Origin: Bacilli bacterium
GTDB lineage: Bacteria > Bacillota_I > Bacilli_A > RFN20 > CAG-826
Assembly (NCBI GenBank): GCA_024408235.1
Contig: JAKSVF010000004.1
Span: forward strand, 1 to 64,000
Direction of reading: 5' to 3'
DNA length: 64,000 nt
Each line of letters begins with the position of its first letter. Position 1 is the first letter of the stretch. Shown piece after piece: positions 6,521 to 17,358 of the stretch. The notes below the pieces were generated by a model that searched no databases, had not been told where the DNA came from, and saw only the letters and a program-made list of their open reading frames with translations. Position numbers and translations under genes: made by a program.

Positions 6521-9136
6521 TTATTCTCCTTCTACGTATGGCATATTCATTGTGATGCAGTGGATGTTTCCTCCGCCAAGCAATATCTCTCTGGTGTTAA
6601 GCTGGTGGATCTTTCTAGTTGGGAACAACTTGCTCATTATATCGTATGCGATTTTATCCTCTTTAACTCCGAATGCTGGGAGGATGATGAATGTGTCTCC
6701 CATATAGAAGTTTACGTAAGATGCTGCAAGTCTTCTTCCTCCGCATCTTTGGTCAAGCGTCGTTGCGGATACACTTAAGGATTTAGCTTCTTCATCACTT
6801 AGATATAGGGCAGGGCTTGGCACTGGAATCTTGTGGATGATGAATTTCCTTCCTTCAGCATCTATTGCTTCGCTCAACGCTTTATATGTTTCCTGACAAT
6901 ATTGATATTGAGGGTCGTTAGCATCGTCTGACCAAGCCATTACTACTTCGCCAGGCTTAACGAATGAGACCATGTTGTCGACGTGTTCATTTGTCTCATC
7001 CTCATATATTCCGTGTGGGAGCCAAATGACTTTTTTAATTCCAAGATATTCCTTTAAGGTATCTTCTATCTCTTCTTTTGAGCAGCTTGGGTTTCTTCCT
7101 TTGGATAATAAGCATGCTTCTGTTGTCAGAAGTGTGCCCTCTCCATCAGAATGCACGGATCCGCCTTCCAAGATGAATGTAGGATGACGGTATGATGATA
7201 CGCCTAGCCTCTTCGCGATGATGCCAGACAATTTGTCATCGTCTCGATAGTTCTTATATAAACCATCGTATTCTCCCCCCCAGGAGTTGAAACGGAAATC
7301 AACCGCTCTGACGGATTTGCCGTTTGTGACGAACAAAGGCATGTTGTCCCTTGCCCATGAATCGTTATACCTGATTGAGATAGGTTTAACGTTTTTCATT
7401 CCCTGGAATAGTGGTGCTAATTTTCTATAGTGAGATGGGTGGATGCCAACAACGACCTCCTCATGTTCCGAGATTGCCTTTATAACCTCAACAAAATTAT
7501 CTTGTCCAGGTTTTGCATTGTTTCTCCATGTATCTAGGCGGAATGGCATCAAAATGAAAGTTCTAGCGTGCTTATCGCCTTCGAATGGTAAGTGGTATCC
7601 GTCATTTTCTGGGTATGTTCTTCTATTCATCTGGTAATCGCTCAACTTTCTCTCATATGCGAAATATCGTTTCCATTTCTTGGTGTCTATGACCTCAAAG
7701 CCGTTATCGTATGCGCTGATGAGGCGTCCACCAGAGGAAATGATCTTCTTCAGTTTTCTAATCAGTTCCTTTGTCCAAACCTCACCTGGGACAATTAGAG
7801 GAATGCCAGGAGGGTACATCATGACTTGTTCTCTAGACACTTCGCCGTCTAGATCGCTTATCGGAACGATTTTGCTCGGGGCATTGAAGGCTACACGTGG
7901 CCTTGCAAGCATATAAGGGAATCCGGTGTCAGGTTCTTTAGCCTGATAAGTGATGGATGGGTCATAGTACAGTTTTGATAACTCTTTCAACCCCTCTATC
8001 AAATGATCTATATGTTCTTTTTTTGTGCCGATGGCAAGTATTCCTAAGACAGCATATGTCTCCGCTAACTCCATCTGGACATTAGCGATTTTCTTCATTT
8101 CTCTATATACACCGAAACCATCGATCTTTAACTTATTAAGGCCTATGACCAGCTTCGTTCTATCGAATCCATATGATCCGTATTTTTTAAAGTGCTTGTC
8201 CGCTTCGACTGAGAATCCAGGGATCTTATCGATCTCACGCTTTGCGTATTCTGCAAGTTCATAGACGGATTCCATTTCATCATGTCCTTCTTTTGAACCC
8301 ATATAGGCTGAGGCGGCTTCTAGTGATGCGATAAGTATGTGGGAAGGGGAAGTGCTGTTTATGATATTTAAAGCCTTTTGGATATCTCCTCGAGAAAATC
8401 TATTTCCCTTTAAAAGGAGAACTGAGCTTTGAGTGAGTGAGCCCGCTGTCTTATGGAATGAGACGGATGACATATCCGCTCCTGCATCCATCGCGTTCAT
8501 TGGGCTGTTTTTGCATCTGAAGTAGAGGTGAGCACCGTGAGCCTCATCGACTAAAACCGCGACATTATGCTCATGAGCGAATTTAACCAGTTCTTTAAGA
8601 TTGCCGACAGAGCCAAAATACGTTGGGTTGATAACGAATATCGCCTTTGCAGAGCTGTTTCTCAAAATTGCTTTTTTCCAAACTTCTAGAGATGGTTGAT
8701 TTACAATCTCTAAGTCGTCATCGACTTCAGGCATGACATACGTTGGAACGGCGCCACATAAAACTAAGGCATTAATCACCGATTTGTGGACGTTTCTTGG
8801 CAAAAGAACCTTTTCACCGGCTTTAACCGCTGCTAAAAACATGGCTATGATGCCGCTTGAAGTTCCATTGATTAAATAGAAAGCGTCATCCGCTCCACAT
8901 ACCTCTGCGGTCATTTTCTCGGATTCTAGGACTACTCCATCTGGGTGTGCGAGGTTATCTAATCCGATAGGGGAATTAACATCGCATCTATATAGCTTCT
9001 CTCCCAGGAGTTCTGTCGCTCTATTTTGGACATTCCCCATGTGGTGTCCAGGCACATCAAAAGGCGAGACGTCCTCTTCGATGTACTTTTCTAACGCATC
9101 TATGAAAGGCGTTTTTAATCTGTCGTCTGTCGTCAT
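6521..9136 (-). CDS. Fused arginine decarboxylase - agmatine deiminase (SpeA-AguA)
   Basis: One 871-residue chain appears to carry two successive steps, arginine to agmatine to N-carbamoylputrescine. Residues about 1-495 are a fold-I Orn/Lys/Arg decarboxylase with PFDVPGHHMGN near 25, the VDEAHGAH block at 197-204 and the PLP lysine K229 in SFHKTAGS. Residues about 515-871 are a peptidyl-arginine-deiminase-type agmatine deiminase ending in GGGNIHCIT, with the catalytic cysteine at about 860. I chose ATG 9136 (MTTDDRLK): the upstream extension to 9214 resembles no decarboxylase, and a TATAAT box (9146-9151) lies inside it, 9 bases before this ATG. Arginine specificity is inferred from the attached deiminase and the aguB neighbour. 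Confidence 0.92.
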   Translation of the reverse strand: MTTDDRLKTPFIDALEKYIEEDVSPFDVPGHHMGNVQNRATELLGEKLYRCDVNSPIGLDNLAHPDGVVLESEKMTAEVCGADDAFYLINGTSSGIIAMFLAAVKAGEKVLLPRNVHKSVINALVLCGAVPTYVMPEVDDDLEIVNQPSLEVWKKAILRNSSAKAIFVINPTYFGSVGNLKELVKFAHEHNVAVLVDEAHGAHLYFRCKNSPMNAMDAGADMSSVSFHKTAGSLTQSSVLLLKGNRFSRGDIQKALNIINSTSPSHILIASLEAASAYMGSKEGHDEMESVYELAEYAKREIDKIPGFSVEADKHFKKYGSYGFDRTKLVIGLNKLKIDGFGVYREMKKIANVQMELAETYAVLGILAIGTKKEHIDHLIEGLKELSKLYYDPSITYQAKEPDTGFPYMLARPRVAFNAPSKIVPISDLDGEVSREQVMMYPPGIPLIVPGEVWTKELIRKLKKIISSGGRLISAYDNGFEVIDTKKWKRYFAYERKLSDYQMNRRTYPENDGYHLPFEGDKHARTFILMPFRLDTWRNNAKPGQDNFVEVIKAISEHEEVVVGIHPSHYRKLAPLFQGMKNVKPISIRYNDSWARDNMPLFVTNGKSVRAVDFRFNSWGGEYDGLYKNYRDDDKLSGIIAKRLGVSSYRHPTFILEGGSVHSDGEGTLLTTEACLLSKGRNPSCSKEEIEDTLKEYLGIKKVIWLPHGIYEDETNEHVDNMVSFVKPGEVVMAWSDDANDPQYQYCQETYKALSEAIDAEGRKFIIHKIPVPSPALYLSDEEAKSLSVSATTLDQRCGGRRLAASYVNFYMGDTFIILPAFGVKEDKIAYDIMSKLFPTRKIHQLNTREILLGGGNIHCITMNMPYVEGE

Positions 9137-9145
9137 ACTGGGAAA

Positions 9146-9184
9146 ATTATAACAAATAGGAATGCTTTGAAAATCTTTTTCAAA
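9146..9184 (-). promoter_or_regulatory. Promoter of speA-aguA with overlapping palindrome
   Basis: On the minus strand a TATAAT box (9146-9151) ends 9 bases before the ATG, so the mRNA would be essentially leaderless. A 7-bp-arm palindrome, TTTGAAA-N5-TTTCAAA (9166-9184), covers the -35 area and may be an operator shared with the divergent CPBP gene. Confidence 0.5.
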
Positions 9185-9191
9185 TAACGTG

Positions 9192-9221
9192 TTAGACAAT
9201 ACGCTTTGTAACACTTAAAAT
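9192..9221 (+). promoter_or_regulatory. Leaderless promoter of the CPBP protease gene
   Basis: TTAGAC (9192-9197), 18-bp spacer, TAAAAT (9216-9221), then 7 bases to ATG 9229. No Shine-Dalgarno is present. Confidence 0.5.
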
Positions 9222-12413: not shown

Positions 12414-14231
12414 ATGAAAATATTATTTGAAACAAGCGAATGCGCTCCTTTTTCTAAATCAGGCGGTTTAGCAGACGTCGCATTTTCGCTTCCTGGCGCT
12501 TTAAAAGACAACGGCCATGAAGTTGCCATTATTACCCCGTTATACAAATGTGTAAAAGATAGGTTTGGCGAAGGCTTAAGACGTTTTAAAAAAACAAACA
12601 TCACCTTAGGCGACAGATCTATTCCGTGCGCTTTATGGAGAGGCAAACTCGGCAAAGTGCCTGTCTATTTCATTGAGAACGATGATTTTTTCAATAGAGA
12701 TAGGCTTTATGGCTATGATGATGATAAATTGAGATTCGCCTTTTTCTCTAAAGCCGTCATCGACGTGATGAAATTCCTTAAGTTCGTTCCTGATATTCTT
12801 CACTGCAACGACTGGGAAACCGCCTTATCTATTTTATATTTAAAAGATGATCAAGCCGTCCGTTCTGACTATAGAAACGTTAAGACCGTTTATACAATCC
12901 ACAATATCGCCTATCAGGGACAATTTGGCGCGAGTGAGTTATATTCCACATTCGGCTTAGTCGAAGGCTGGTATCAGGGCGCTTTAGCCTATGAATATCA
13001 GGGAAGACACGATGTCAACCTCATGAAAGGCGCGATGCTTATGGCAGACGCAGTTTCAACCGTATCTCCAACTTACGCTAAAGAATTGCATTCGCATGAG
13101 TTCGGAAAAGGCCTCGAAGGCGTGTGTGATTTGGTGGAAGCTAAAATGTACGGAATCCTCAACGGCATCAACATGGCTCATTATGACCCTAGAAAAGACA
13201 AGAGAATTCCTGCTAACTTCAGCCTTAAGAAGAGAGACGGCAAGGATATATGTAAAGCGGAATTGCAGAAAGAATTTGGCTTAAAGACAGAGAAAGATTG
13301 GCCATTATTCTGCTCAGTTGCCCGCTTAGTCGAGCAGAAGGGCATTGAACTCATTAAGGACCTTCTTCCTAAACTCATGGAGATGGGCGTTCAAATCATC
13401 ATCTATGGACAAGGTGATCAGTCTTATATCGACTTCTTCAACGATTTCAAAGAGAAATACCCTGACCAATTTGGGTTCTCAAGCGATTATAACGAAGAGA
13501 GAGCGGCACGTGTATTTGCTGGCTCGGACTTCTATCTCATGCCATCTAGCTTTGAGCCGTGTGGTTTATCACAGATGATGGCAATGAGATATGGAACGAT
13601 TCCTGTTGTTCACGAGACTGGAGGATTAAAGGATTCTGTTAGAGCCTACTCTGACTTCGATGGAATCGGAGACGGATTCTCATTCGCCGCCTATAACTCT
13701 AAAGCGTTGCTCCTAGCGATATCACAGGCCGTTAAGATTTATTTTGGGCAGCAGAATGTTTTCTACACCCTTAGAGATAGATGCATGAAGAAAGATTTCT
13801 CATGGACCAAATCTGCTTTAGTGTACGAGAAGATGTACTCTGATATTGCGGGAGGAGGTTCCGATCCAAGCATCTCCTTCATCGAAGCCTATAATACGCT
13901 TAAAGAATTGTATGAGGGCTTAGAAGAATCAAGAAACGCATATCTTTCCACAAAGAAAGACTCGTATTCAAATATCATCCAGATAAGAATTGAGGGGCCA
14001 GGAGAAGGAACATTCCATCTCAAAATAACAAAGAAAGAAGGAATGATTATTGAACCTGTGAGTTGCAGTGAAGCCGATTGCTTTGTGGCGGCGTCCTTAG
14101 ATAATCTTGTTGGCATGGCTAGCGGGACTGTCAGCGCGGATAAATTGTTCATAACAGGTCAAATGAAGGTCGATGGCAATGTATCTAAAGGCGCACAGAT
14201 GCGTTACTTGATTGGCAAAAAAGAGTTTTAA
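12414..14231 (+). CDS. glgA: Glycogen synthase fused to a C-terminal SCP2-like domain
   Basis: Residues 1-480 are a GT5 starch/glycogen synthase that would extend alpha-1,4-glucan from ADP-glucose. Evidence is the ADP-glucose-binding KSGGLADV near residue 16, ILHCNDWETA, YTIHNIAYQG and the acceptor/catalytic block SSFEPCGLSQMMAMRYG. The chain then continues to residue 605. The last ~90 residues (516-605) read as an SCP2/sterol-carrier-like domain, with FHLKI, an alternating strand region, SLDNLVGMASGTVSADKLFITGQ split across a helix, and MKVDGN. GlgA is normally about 480 residues, so this is a fusion. No other glycogen gene (glgB/C/D/P) is in the window. Confidence 0.9.
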   Translation: MKILFETSECAPFSKSGGLADVAFSLPGALKDNGHEVAIITPLYKCVKDRFGEGLRRFKKTNITLGDRSIPCALWRGKLGKVPVYFIENDDFFNRDRLYGYDDDKLRFAFFSKAVIDVMKFLKFVPDILHCNDWETALSILYLKDDQAVRSDYRNVKTVYTIHNIAYQGQFGASELYSTFGLVEGWYQGALAYEYQGRHDVNLMKGAMLMADAVSTVSPTYAKELHSHEFGKGLEGVCDLVEAKMYGILNGINMAHYDPRKDKRIPANFSLKKRDGKDICKAELQKEFGLKTEKDWPLFCSVARLVEQKGIELIKDLLPKLMEMGVQIIIYGQGDQSYIDFFNDFKEKYPDQFGFSSDYNEERAARVFAGSDFYLMPSSFEPCGLSQMMAMRYGTIPVVHETGGLKDSVRAYSDFDGIGDGFSFAAYNSKALLLAISQAVKIYFGQQNVFYTLRDRCMKKDFSWTKSALVYEKMYSDIAGGGSDPSISFIEAYNTLKELYEGLEESRNAYLSTKKDSYSNIIQIRIEGPGEGTFHLKITKKEGMIIEPVSCSEADCFVAASLDNLVGMASGTVSADKLFITGQMKVDGNVSKGAQMRYLIGKKEF

Positions 14232-14325: not shown

Positions 14326-14353
14326 TTGCACATTATTTTTTTCCTAGTATAGT
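14326..14353 (+). promoter_or_regulatory. Strong promoter of the large structured RNA
   Basis: TTGCAC (14326-14331), 16-bp spacer, TATAGT (14348-14353), preceded by an A/T-rich tract (an UP-element-like run of A and T). The AAAAAGTGTTG...TATAGT layout is almost the same as at the S10 operon promoter (53.72-53.75 kb), suggesting a similarly strong, growth-regulated promoter. Confidence 0.75.
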
Positions 14354-14359
14354 TATGTG

Positions 14360-15440
14360 TTCGCCGGACGAACGAACCAGAAATTGGTGAAGCAACAATC
14401 AAAGATTGTTGATAAAGAACGCGGCGATGCATCATTACTCAAAGAACCGAAAGAACGGAACTTGTGAAAGAAACCGACGTAAGGGGACATGAGAAAACCA
14501 TCCAACCGATGGCTGAGGTTGTAAGACTTCAGTGGAGAGGGAAGAACGTGTTAGGAAGCTAACATGAAGAAGCCCGCTCGACAGGATAGGAAAGAGAAAA
14601 CGAGTCGCAGGTTCTAACAAGAGCTGAGCGGAAACGCCTCTAACCGAAGAACGACGACGAATCGAATCGACCAGATAATGAGCGAGGAGACGTGGCGCCG
14701 GAACCCATCGGAAAGCAATCAGTAAGGCGGCCGAGAGGTACAGTACTGATGTAGCGGAAGAACCGAAGGCCTCGAAAGAGGAACAGGGGAAACCGAAACC
14801 GAGCCAGCTTGAAGCAGGACTCACCGAGGACGAAAGGAATCGGGCAAGGCGCTTGCAAGACTGGATCATCGACCAGCTGATGGAACCTCAAGAAGTTGAG
14901 GATTGTCACCTAGGCCTCTGATCAACCCCGAGAAATTGAGGATGACCCACCTAGTGTGAAAGCGGAGAAGACCTAATAAACAGAAGAAGATCTGAAGAAG
15001 AGGTTGGAGCGAAGTCAGTTGAAGGACGGAGGGCAGATGGAAGTCTGCTAAGCCTCGGCTTGAAGGAGAATCCCGTAAGGGAGAGGACGAGAGCAGGGAA
15101 CGAAGCGATGAAGACAAGTCAGCAATCGTAAGATTGAAAGGACGGTCGGAGCTAATCCGTAGAGACGATGATGAAGCGGGGGAACAAAATGAACCCGCAG
15201 GAGAATCAAAACTATCTGATCCGTGAGGAAAGGACAGGAGGATTCCCGGAACGACCCAGCACAAAGATGGCGCCCGAAAGGACGGCAGGACAAATTCTGG
15301 GTGATTGCTAAGAGATAGATGGCAAGAGATGGAGTACCCTCCATCGCAAAGAGCTAGGCCTCTCCGAATCGTAAGATGCGGGCAGGGGCGCTAAGAGCGT
15401 ATGATGCAAAAGGGGGAGGCAGCGTGAGCTGTCTTTTTTT
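14360..15440 (+). ncRNA. Large (~1.08 kb) structured non-coding RNA, family unknown
   Basis: This stretch between a clear promoter and a clear terminator has no credible ORF, is purine-rich on the plus strand, and is packed with hairpins. Examples: GTTCG/CGAAC 14359-14373; CAACAATC/GATTGTTG 14393-14411; TGTTAG-GAAG-CTAACA 14549-14564; ATCAGTA/TACTGAT 14718-14750; CCTC-GAAA-GAGG 14770-14781; TCCC-GTAA-GGGA 15071-15082; CAATC-GTAA-GATTG 15123-15136; GATGGAG-TACC-CTCCATC 15328-15345. GNRA loops recur. A hairpin plus flank is duplicated at exactly 40-base spacing (14886 and 14926). GCATCAT (14429-14435) can pair with ATGATGC (15401-15407), which would close the molecule. It resembles ornate giant RNAs such as ROOL, GOLLD and OLE in style, but is longer than typical ROOL or OLE. 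I cannot assign it to any of them. Confidence 0.85.
14886..14954 (+). repeat. Imperfect 40-base tandem duplication inside the large RNA
   Basis: Two copies start at 14886 and 14926. Each has a CCNC..GA(A/G)..TTGAGG hairpin followed by GAT..CACCTAG. Differences between copies largely preserve the stem (for example A-U becoming G-U), as expected if the RNA hairpin is what is kept. Confidence 0.6.
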
Positions 15441-15452
15441 CTTCCCCCTTTT
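15408..15452 (+). terminator. Terminator of the large RNA
   Basis: GGCAGC-GTGA-GCTGTC (15418-15433) followed by seven T and CTT, nested in an outer AAGGGGGA/TTCCCCCTT pairing. Confidence 0.88.
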
Positions 15453-16034
15453 ATTAACTGAATGTTTATGAAATGGTTGGAAATATCCGTTGACTTTATA
15501 GCTTCCAAACATAATTTAAGTATGATTAGGATATACGCCTCGCTGTCTTCGTTCTTTATCTCTGCACTTTCTTATTGTAATTATTGCTGTGGAAGTTTTT
15601 ATCAAGTTCGATGTTCGATGAGCGTCAAAAACAGTTAAGATTTAAACATAAATTTGTCTGCGAAAAAAATGATTGCTCTTTTGCGCAAATTAAATTCGAT
15701 AGAATGATGCTTGGATACTTTGTATTTTCAGCTCATTTAATTGACTTTTTTAATTATTAAACACATAATTTTTGTGTCCTAGAAACATAAGCAAATTCAA
15801 AGACGATTAGGATTTTGACATGAGAGTCATAAATGCAGTCCGATCCTCTGCAAAATGGTGATAATGTTATCGCCTTATTGATTGATAACTCGACGGTTAT
15901 CTAAATTTTGTAAGTTGGTTACTTTACAACCATTAAAAGCACCTGCGTGCCACTTGTGAAACTTATCAATAAGAGTAGTAAAAGTATCTTACTATATAGA
16001 CTCTATCCATCTCCTGATGAAGTGATGTTTACGG
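15453..16034. other. Non-coding stretch between the large RNA and the spermidine operon
   Basis: About 580 A/T-rich bases hold no convincing gene. Visible structures are TTGGAA...TTCCAA arms near 15477-15510, a GGTGATA/TATCGCC hairpin near 15857-15874, and a possible promoter (TTGATT about 18 bp before TAAATT) near 15878-15908 that would transcribe the leader of the spermidine operon. Confidence 0.4.
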
Positions 16035-16063
16035 TAGCCGCATGTGAAGTGGCTATCTTTTTG
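15949..16063 (+). promoter_or_regulatory. Attenuator-like leader of the carboxyspermidine operon
   Basis: A terminator hairpin TAGCC/GGCTA (16035-16055) with an 11-base loop and TCTTTTTG ends just before the AGGAGG of the operon. Its 3' side (AAGTGGC, 16047-16053) can instead pair with GCCACTT at 15949-15955, which would disrupt it. Two exclusive structures imply transcription attenuation. The ligand is unknown; polyamine sensing is a guess from the genes. Confidence 0.5.
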
Positions 16064-16080
16064 TTTATTAGGAGGTAAGT

Positions 16081-17358
16081 ATGGCCCGTGTAATCATTAT
16101 TGGCTGTGGTGGTGTTGCCACAGTTGGCATCACAAAGTGCTGCCAGCACCCAGAGGTCTTTGAAGAGATTATGATCGCTTCAAGAACTAAATCTAAATGC
16201 GACGCTCTCGCAGAGAAATTAAGACCAACAACGAAAACGGTTATTCACACAACTGCAATTGATGCAGGTGACGTTAATCAGGTCATCGCCCTCATTAAAG
16301 AATTCAAGGCTGATATGGTCATGCATTTAGGCATGCCATTCCACAACCTCGTCATCATGGATGCTTGCTTAGAGTGCAAGATTCACTATCTCGACACAGC
16401 TGAATATGAACCTGAAGATGTTGATGAGCCAGTATGGAGAGCTAGATACGAGAAGAGAGTTAAAGAACTTGGATTCTCTGCATATTTCGATTACTCATAT
16501 CAGTGGGAATACCGTGAGAGATTCGAGAAGATCGGCAAGATCGCTCTTTTAGGATGCGGATTCGATCCAGGAGTCACTCAGGCATATGTCGCTTATGCAA
16601 AGAAGCATTACTTCGATGAAATTGAATATATCGATATCTTAGACTGCAACGGCGGAGATCATGGTTATAAGTTTGCAACAAACTTCAACCCAGAAATCAA
16701 CTTACGTGAAGTCTCATCTCCAGGCGCTTACTATGAAAATGGTAAATGGCACACAATCGCTCCAATGAGCATCATGCATCCATATGATTTCGACGAAGTC
16801 GGTGTTAAGAACATGTATCTTCTCCACCACGAGGAAACCGAATCTATCGCTAGATGGTTCCCAGAGGTCAAGAGAATCAGATTCTACATGTCATTCGGCG
16901 ATTCATACATCCAGCACATGAACTGCTTACAGGACGTCGGAATGTTAAGAACAGACCCTGTCATGTATAACGGCGTTGAAATCACTCCAATCCAGTTCTT
17001 AAAAGCCCTCTTACCAGACCCAGCAACCCTTGGTCCAAGAACGGTCGGTAAAACAAATATTGGATGTATCTGCCGTGGTAAAAAAGATGGCAAACCAGTC
17101 AGCTACTACATTTATAACGTCTGCGATCACCAGGAATCTTATAAAGAGACTGGATCACAGGCTATCTCATACACAACCGGAACCCCAGCTATGTGCGGCG
17201 CTATGATGGTTTTAACAGGTAAGTGGACAAAACCTGGCGCTAGAACATGCGATGAATATGATCCAGATCCATTCATCGACGCACTCAATAAATACGGACT
17301 TCCAACAAGGGAGAACTTCAATCCTAAGATGATTGATGATTCATATGACAATCTTTGA
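16081..17358 (+). CDS. Carboxynorspermidine/carboxyspermidine dehydrogenase
   Basis: This 425-residue saccharopine-dehydrogenase-family (LYS9-type) enzyme condenses L-aspartate semialdehyde with putrescine (or diaminopropane) using NADPH to give carboxyspermidine. The N-terminal Rossmann motif is IIGCGGVATVG, followed by the family blocks LGMPFHNLVIMDACLE and GFDPGVTQAY. The gene overlaps the decarboxylase that completes the pathway, which separates it from lysine-pathway homologues. With the arginine-to-putrescine genes at 5.7-9.1 kb the cell should make spermidine without S-adenosylmethionine decarboxylase. The ATG follows AGGAGG and an attenuator-like leader. Confidence 0.93.
   Translation: MARVIIIGCGGVATVGITKCCQHPEVFEEIMIASRTKSKCDALAEKLRPTTKTVIHTTAIDAGDVNQVIALIKEFKADMVMHLGMPFHNLVIMDACLECKIHYLDTAEYEPEDVDEPVWRARYEKRVKELGFSAYFDYSYQWEYRERFEKIGKIALLGCGFDPGVTQAYVAYAKKHYFDEIEYIDILDCNGGDHGYKFATNFNPEINLREVSSPGAYYENGKWHTIAPMSIMHPYDFDEVGVKNMYLLHHEETESIARWFPEVKRIRFYMSFGDSYIQHMNCLQDVGMLRTDPVMYNGVEITPIQFLKALLPDPATLGPRTVGKTNIGCICRGKKDGKPVSYYIYNVCDHQESYKETGSQAISYTTGTPAMCGAMMVLTGKWTKPGARTCDEYDPDPFIDALNKYGLPTRENFNPKMIDDSYDNL

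Follow-up and report, generated by a model that had tools for sequence, protein, structure and literature searches.

The 64,000-nucleotide stretch of DNA analysed here (the window) holds, between a starch-synthase gene (glgA, 12414-14231) and a saccharopine-dehydrogenase-like gene that begins at 16081, an intergenic, purine-rich and ORF-poor transcription unit (14348-15440, forward strand), which raises the question of whether a structured RNA is encoded there and, if so, whether it belongs to a known family of large ornate RNAs or to a class of its own; the original prediction had left both options open. Apart from rRNA and introns, only a few known bacterial RNAs reach such size and complexity, and no large ornate RNA has a settled function. 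By comparing sequences, we established that the unit is the type A copy of a conserved, folded and independently bounded RNA gene family with two paralogues in the same genome. That this family represents a new class of large (0.94-1.11 kb), independently transcribed and trans-acting structured RNA is likely, transcription and trans action being inferred in the absence of transcript data.

We compared the ORFs and the folding energy of the unit with those of shuffled sequences. The longest ORF on the forward strand inside type A has 47 codons (shuffle mean 71), and a reverse-strand ORF of 144 codons is ordinary for the composition (shuffle mean 113, maximum 267). The claims that no credible ORF is present and that the plus strand is purine-rich thus both held, as ORFs on either strand are no longer than shuffles predict and purines make up 65% of the forward strand. 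The folding energy of type A is -324 kcal/mol, against -277 +/- 7.6 for 40 dinucleotide shuffles (z = -6.3), and z ranges from -4.4 to -8.9 across four copies. The promoter, the terminator and the complementary GCATCAT and ATGATGC of the original prediction were all confirmed at the positions given in Table 1, with the reservation that the promoter had been called strong: only 3 of the 6 positions of its -35 box fit the consensus, and we take the promoter as real because the homologues have TTGA/TTGAC boxes at an equal offset. A -35/-10 pair at equal offset, with a spacing of 16-17, was found in 11 of 11 copies, and this pair together with a hairpin/U-run terminator in every copy with available ends; a generic promoter/terminator scan missed both the promoter and the real terminator of type A and was uninformative. 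Since promoter and terminator are conserved, we infer that the unit is transcribed, with a transcript predicted from sequence alone to start near 14360 and to span about 1,080 nt.

A DNA search of 61 relatives returned copies in three genomes: one 94% identical in G027, one 70% identical in G016, and one in G036 that is broken across the ends of two contigs. It also returned an 89-base match at another place in G000, the genome of the window. This match was the visible part of a full second copy, type B (L006), which measures 1,100 nt from the -10 box to the terminator and is about 54% identical to type A. A covariance model of the 5' region then revealed two further types, C in these same four genomes and D (L012) in another genus of the family, and eleven copies are known in all. 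The two diverged paralogues in the window's genome, B and C, share 46-55% identity with type A; between types overall, identity is 44-55%. Measured from the -10 box to the U-run, the copies span 1,093-1,097 nt (A), 1,100-1,102 nt (B), 940-1,110 nt (C) and 1,060 nt (D). Each of the four congeneric species carries two to three paralogue types, with A and C present in all four, and the duplication is therefore older than these species. The type C copies of G036 and G016 (L017 and L018) are shortened to about 940 nt through loss of the 3' hairpin domain and of the closing helix in both its arms, and retain the core, their own promoter and their own terminator.

The distribution of the family is narrow. 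Convincing matches to the 3'-domain/5'-region models were restricted to G000, G027, G016, G036 and G156 (5 of 279 genomes of the order), with the family in 4 of the 37 species of the genus, and the same models gave no further convincing match among 395 class-level and 392 phylum-level genome draws; this narrowness counts against the proposed class. When about 85,000 species genomes were searched for an exact conserved motif, the only real members were in Bacillales bacterium UBA1744 (three copies), Bacilli bacterium Horse_feces351 and Bacillales bacterium SUG1798, the other matches examined being of chance-level score or inside ORFs (e.g., ATP synthase, terminase-like). Weak covariance-model matches of 18-29 bits in other Bacilli were not counted, as those inspected lay in coding sequence or lacked a match to the second model. 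A further match of 27.6 bits (L104, contig 1 of G690, a genome of the same class, apparently from a mollicute that reads UGA as Trp) was judged to be due to chance. No homologue was found in searches of phages, plasmids and viral contigs; viral-contig matches to two conserved motifs lacked the second motif or fell within coding sequence.

The secondary structure was obtained by averaging the base-pair probabilities of the ten full copies on alignment A8 and keeping helices with at least 85% pairing, to which the closing helix was added. The 106 chosen pairs, in 16 helices, are paired in 92.7% of 978 cells of the ten full copies. Changes on both sides were counted at 68 of the 106 pairs, against 40.7 +/- 3.5 in shuffles, and covariation was 0.465, against 0.193 +/- 0.011 for shuffles and 0.042-0.108 for slid partners; for the 3' domain alone, with a hand-written structure, it was 0.578 against 0.221 shuffled. 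Compensatory changes among homologues, which the original prediction had called for, were thus found, the count being made without R-scape and on the same ten partly related sequences that gave the structure. With covarying conserved pairs and no conserved reading frame, the general criterion for a structured noncoding RNA is met. The alternative of a protein-coding remnant or a functionless chance composition, for which only the reverse-strand ORFs of up to 144 codons speak, is all but excluded: such ORFs are expected from the composition, and the alternative does not account for the compensatory changes, the conserved ends and length or the two to three paralogues kept in four species.

Table 1. 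Features of the type A locus, in window coordinates.
Feature	Position	Strand	Remarks
Promoter	14326..14353	+	TTGCAC 14326-14331, 16-nt spacer, TATAGT 14348-14353; A/T tracts upstream
Large structured noncoding RNA, type A	14355..15440	+	Homologues L002, L003, L004/L005 (A), L006, L007 (B), L017-L020 (C), L012 (D)
5' helix CGCCG/CGGCG	14362-14366 / 14422-14426	+	Read by eye; outside the counted structure
Closing helix GCATCAT/ATGATGC	14429-14435 / 15401-15407	+	Spans the molecule
Long-range helix CCAUC/GAUGG	14498-14503 / 15317-15322	+	Helix 3; 95% paired; span about 820 nt
Long-range helix CCGATGG/CCATCGG	14506-14512 / 14705-14711	+	Helix 4; 100% paired
GNRA hairpin (GUAA here)	14513..14532	+	Helix 5; 8/8 pairs double-changed; GNRA in 10/10 copies
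GNRA hairpin (GAAA here)	14769..14782	+	Helix 6; 5/5 pairs double-changed; GNRA in 10/10 copies
Helix UCAUCG/CGAUGA	14866-14871 / 15166-15171	+	Helix 7; 96.7% paired; 4/6 double changes; arms about 300 nt apart
Helix around the 14909-14955 stem	14874-14881 / 15014-15021	+	Helices 8-10; 95% paired; 6/8 double changes
Hairpin GCAGAU-GGAA-GUCUGC	15033..15048	+	Helix 13; GGAA loop invariant in all copies
Helix	15054-15061 / 15091-15098	+	Helix 14; 7/8 pairs double-changed
Hairpin GAUGGAG-UACC-CUCCAUC near the 3' end	15328..15345	+	Helix 16; 6/7 pairs double-changed
Intrinsic terminator	15418..15440	+	GGCAGC-GTGA-GCTGTC (15418-15433), then T7

Long-range helices link bases 200-970 nt apart. The most telling is CCRRUGG/CCAYYGG, whose arms lie 176-234 nt apart and are perfectly paired in all copies, in the three forms CCGATGG/CCATCGG, CCAATGG/CCATTGG and CCGGTGG/CCACCGG; one compensatory change in it distinguishes G000 from G027, the two copies being 94.5% identical. 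The CCAUC/GAUGG helix reads CCGUCU/AGACGG in type B, with an A-U to G-C change. A local CCAUC/GAUGG hairpin in place of the long-range pairings was considered and rejected, as it is broken in G027 and type D while the long-range partners remain paired. The 5' helix is compensated in G027 (CGCCC/GGGCG), and other complementary arms take its place in types B, C and D. The proposed closing pairing held in the eight copies that have it (98.2% of cells paired), with changes only between G-C and G-U or U-A and U-G; both arms are missing together from the type C copies of G016 and G036. As the pairs of this helix are almost invariant, it is supported by conservation and joint loss and not by covariation.

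Conserved sequence blocks are kept alongside the helices, and GNRA-capped hairpins, as had been claimed, are present and conserved among copies: three hairpins carry a GNRA tetraloop in 10 of 10 copies (GUAA, GCAA, GAGA, GAAA, GGAA), with loop letters varying at two of the three, and GNRA 4-mers have a frequency of only 6-10% in these RNAs. Judging from sequence alone, the conserved loops might make loop-receptor contacts. The claim of a 40-base hairpin duplication (at about 14885-14955) held only in part: two similar hairpins can be seen by eye, a single-sequence repeat search returned no repeat family, and they are not retained as a repeat in types B-D.

We then turned to known families. A cmscan comparison with Rfam, which the original prediction had also called for, was run with all 4,227 families (Rfam 15) and none matched any copy, with no match at the cut-off in the whole window; a permissive scan of the type A locus gave chance matches only, and 37 kb of homologous loci gave only two sub-threshold chance matches. 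The RNase P model finds a normal RNase P RNA in the genome (235 bits) and does not match the new RNA. No description of the family was found in the literature searched, which did not cover most subscription papers or bioRxiv's own holdings.

The prediction's first option, a highly diverged member of ROOL, GOLLD or OLE, has in its favour a shared style (large size, many helices, GNRA hairpins, unknown function) and, for ROOL (RF03087), its occurrence in the same genus: genuine ROOL RNAs (113-204 bits) lie at separate loci (L099-L103) in five species (G036, G016, G011, G022 and G030), with two copies in G036, and G016 and G036 carry ROOL plus the new RNA. Against it, cmscan at E-values up to 0.5 gave no match to ROOL, GOLLD or OLE at 12 loci, and the ROOL gathering threshold (99.1 bits) was not reached in the window or at these loci. 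In a search of the genus, the ROOL model scored strongly at the true ROOL loci and had no match in G000 or G027, and a blastn comparison (word size 7) with the five ROOL loci gave a best E-value of 0.35, which is chance level. The ROOL model has 574 positions and OLE (RF01071) about 600 nt, so that the new RNA, at about 1,080 nt, is nearly twice as long as either. OLE is a large Bacillota RNA, dimeric and with A-minor contacts (PMC12286853), and the new loci share no partner gene; its model had no match in 37 genomes of the genus, though no control genome matched either. GOLLD (RF01998), the largest known ornate RNA, with many members above 800 nt, forms a nanocage (PMC12286853); the new RNA is longer, has no covariance-model match and was not found in phage collections. 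The raiA-motif RNA and HEARO, likewise structured bacterial RNAs, do not match and are much shorter (HEARO construct 343 nt). We consider membership in ROOL, GOLLD or OLE unlikely and the prediction's claim of it unsupported, no OLE or GOLLD model matching and ROOL occupying separate loci that do not match. The other option, a new large-RNA class, is supported by the homologues, the conserved ends, the promoter and terminator, the compensatory changes and the absence of an Rfam match: the RNA is of the same genre as the ornate large RNAs and lies outside every described family that could be tested.

We inspected the genomic neighborhood of the copies. In G000 and G027, type A is flanked by glgA and the saccharopine-dehydrogenase-like gene; in G016 and G036 it adjoins a pheA-like gene (luxS-like/pheA-like site). 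Type B is placed after a divergent MFS transporter gene, type C adjoins a lipoprotein gene, divergent from it, in all four species (aldolase/lipoprotein site), and type D follows a lipoprotein gene. A gene common to all types was sought at the loci without success, and no neighbor points to a function or partner. There is no tRNA in the window or at the type A-C loci, with one 1.5 kb from type D; the phage or prophage encoding and tRNA proximity typical of ROOL and GOLLD are not met. Each copy being its own transcription unit, with paralogue types beside different genes, we infer that the RNA acts in trans.

Two readings of this context were weighed. That type A is a cis-acting leader or riboswitch for the saccharopine-dehydrogenase-like gene, upstream of which it lies in G000 and G027, is very unlikely: its own terminator closes the RNA 640 nt before the gene, type A of G016 and G036 precedes a pheA-like gene, and B and C lie elsewhere, C being divergent from its lipoprotein gene. 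A mobile ribozyme, be it a self-splicing intron, a retroelement or another kind, is likewise very unlikely. The occurrence of three paralogues at separate sites, and a type A site that differs between G000/G027 and G016/G036, would fit such an element; against it, neither group I/II introns nor any other Rfam family match, promoter and terminator bound the RNA, no gene is interrupted, the constant lipoprotein-family neighbor of type C in four species means that it is not actively jumping, and the phage, plasmid and viral-contig searches found no homologue.

As to how the RNA might work, its ends would join in the closing helix to give a closed molecule, the CCRUC/GAYGG and CCRRUGG/CCAYYGG long-range helices would then gather several domains, and the GNRA hairpins would probably serve tertiary (A-minor) docking. 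By analogy to ROOL, GOLLD and OLE, the folded RNA may be a self-standing RNA-only particle, perhaps homo- or hetero-oligomeric, whose role would be that of a scaffold or compartment and not that of a regulator working by base pairing, a model against which we lean slightly. The analogy rests on GOLLD (14-mer), ROOL (8-mer) and OLE (dimer) being homo-oligomers, and it leaves the inferred oligomerization well short of an even chance because the same cryo-EM conditions showed raiA-motif RNA to be monomeric (PMC12286853).

The main rival, which shares the family-level claim and differs only in this last step, is a monomeric structured RNA, either a protein-bound RNP or a ribozyme, and could as well be right as wrong. 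In its favour, large size need not mean oligomers, raiA being monomeric and HEARO disordered without its protein (PMC12286853), and the sequence blocks are conserved as well as the helices. Against an RNP, no linked protein gene is common to all loci; a ribozyme is disfavoured by the lack of a match to known ribozyme families and by the presence of a separate RNase P RNA in the genome. The evidence could still be reconciled with catalysis or with a dedicated protein partner. A bolder form of the particle model, in which a kilobase RNA self-assembles without protein, possibly into a mixed A/B/C particle in one cell, cannot be dismissed and, if true, would mean chains longer than in any natural RNA-only complex described to date.

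The proposed class is longer than typical members of ROOL, GOLLD and OLE and is chromosomal, with no phage homologue found. Its two to three paralogue types per genome provide a natural internal comparison and a direct test of mixed large-RNA assemblies, and in the two species that also carry ROOL both RNAs can be studied in one cell type.

Separately from the RNA, the flanking genes gave some observations of their own. The saccharopine-dehydrogenase-like gene is preceded by a long AT-rich leader (15830-16085; folding z -2.5) that matches no Rfam family and ends in a terminator-like hairpin (16033-16057, GGTAGCC...GGCTATC TTTTT) some 20 nt ahead of the start codon at 16081; this leader could conceivably be an attenuator or riboswitch of a putative polyamine operon. 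An 897-aa ORF on the reverse strand (6521-9214) joins an Orn/Lys/Arg decarboxylase domain to an agmatine-deiminase-like (PAD_porph) domain, and this fusion, together with the genes at 16081 and 17333, is suggestive of a carboxyspermidine-type polyamine pathway, a tentative assignment. Finally, the starch/glycogen synthase (12414-14231, forward strand) is an unusual fusion with an extra C-terminal SCP2 sterol-transfer-like domain (residues 517-597, E-value 8e-11).
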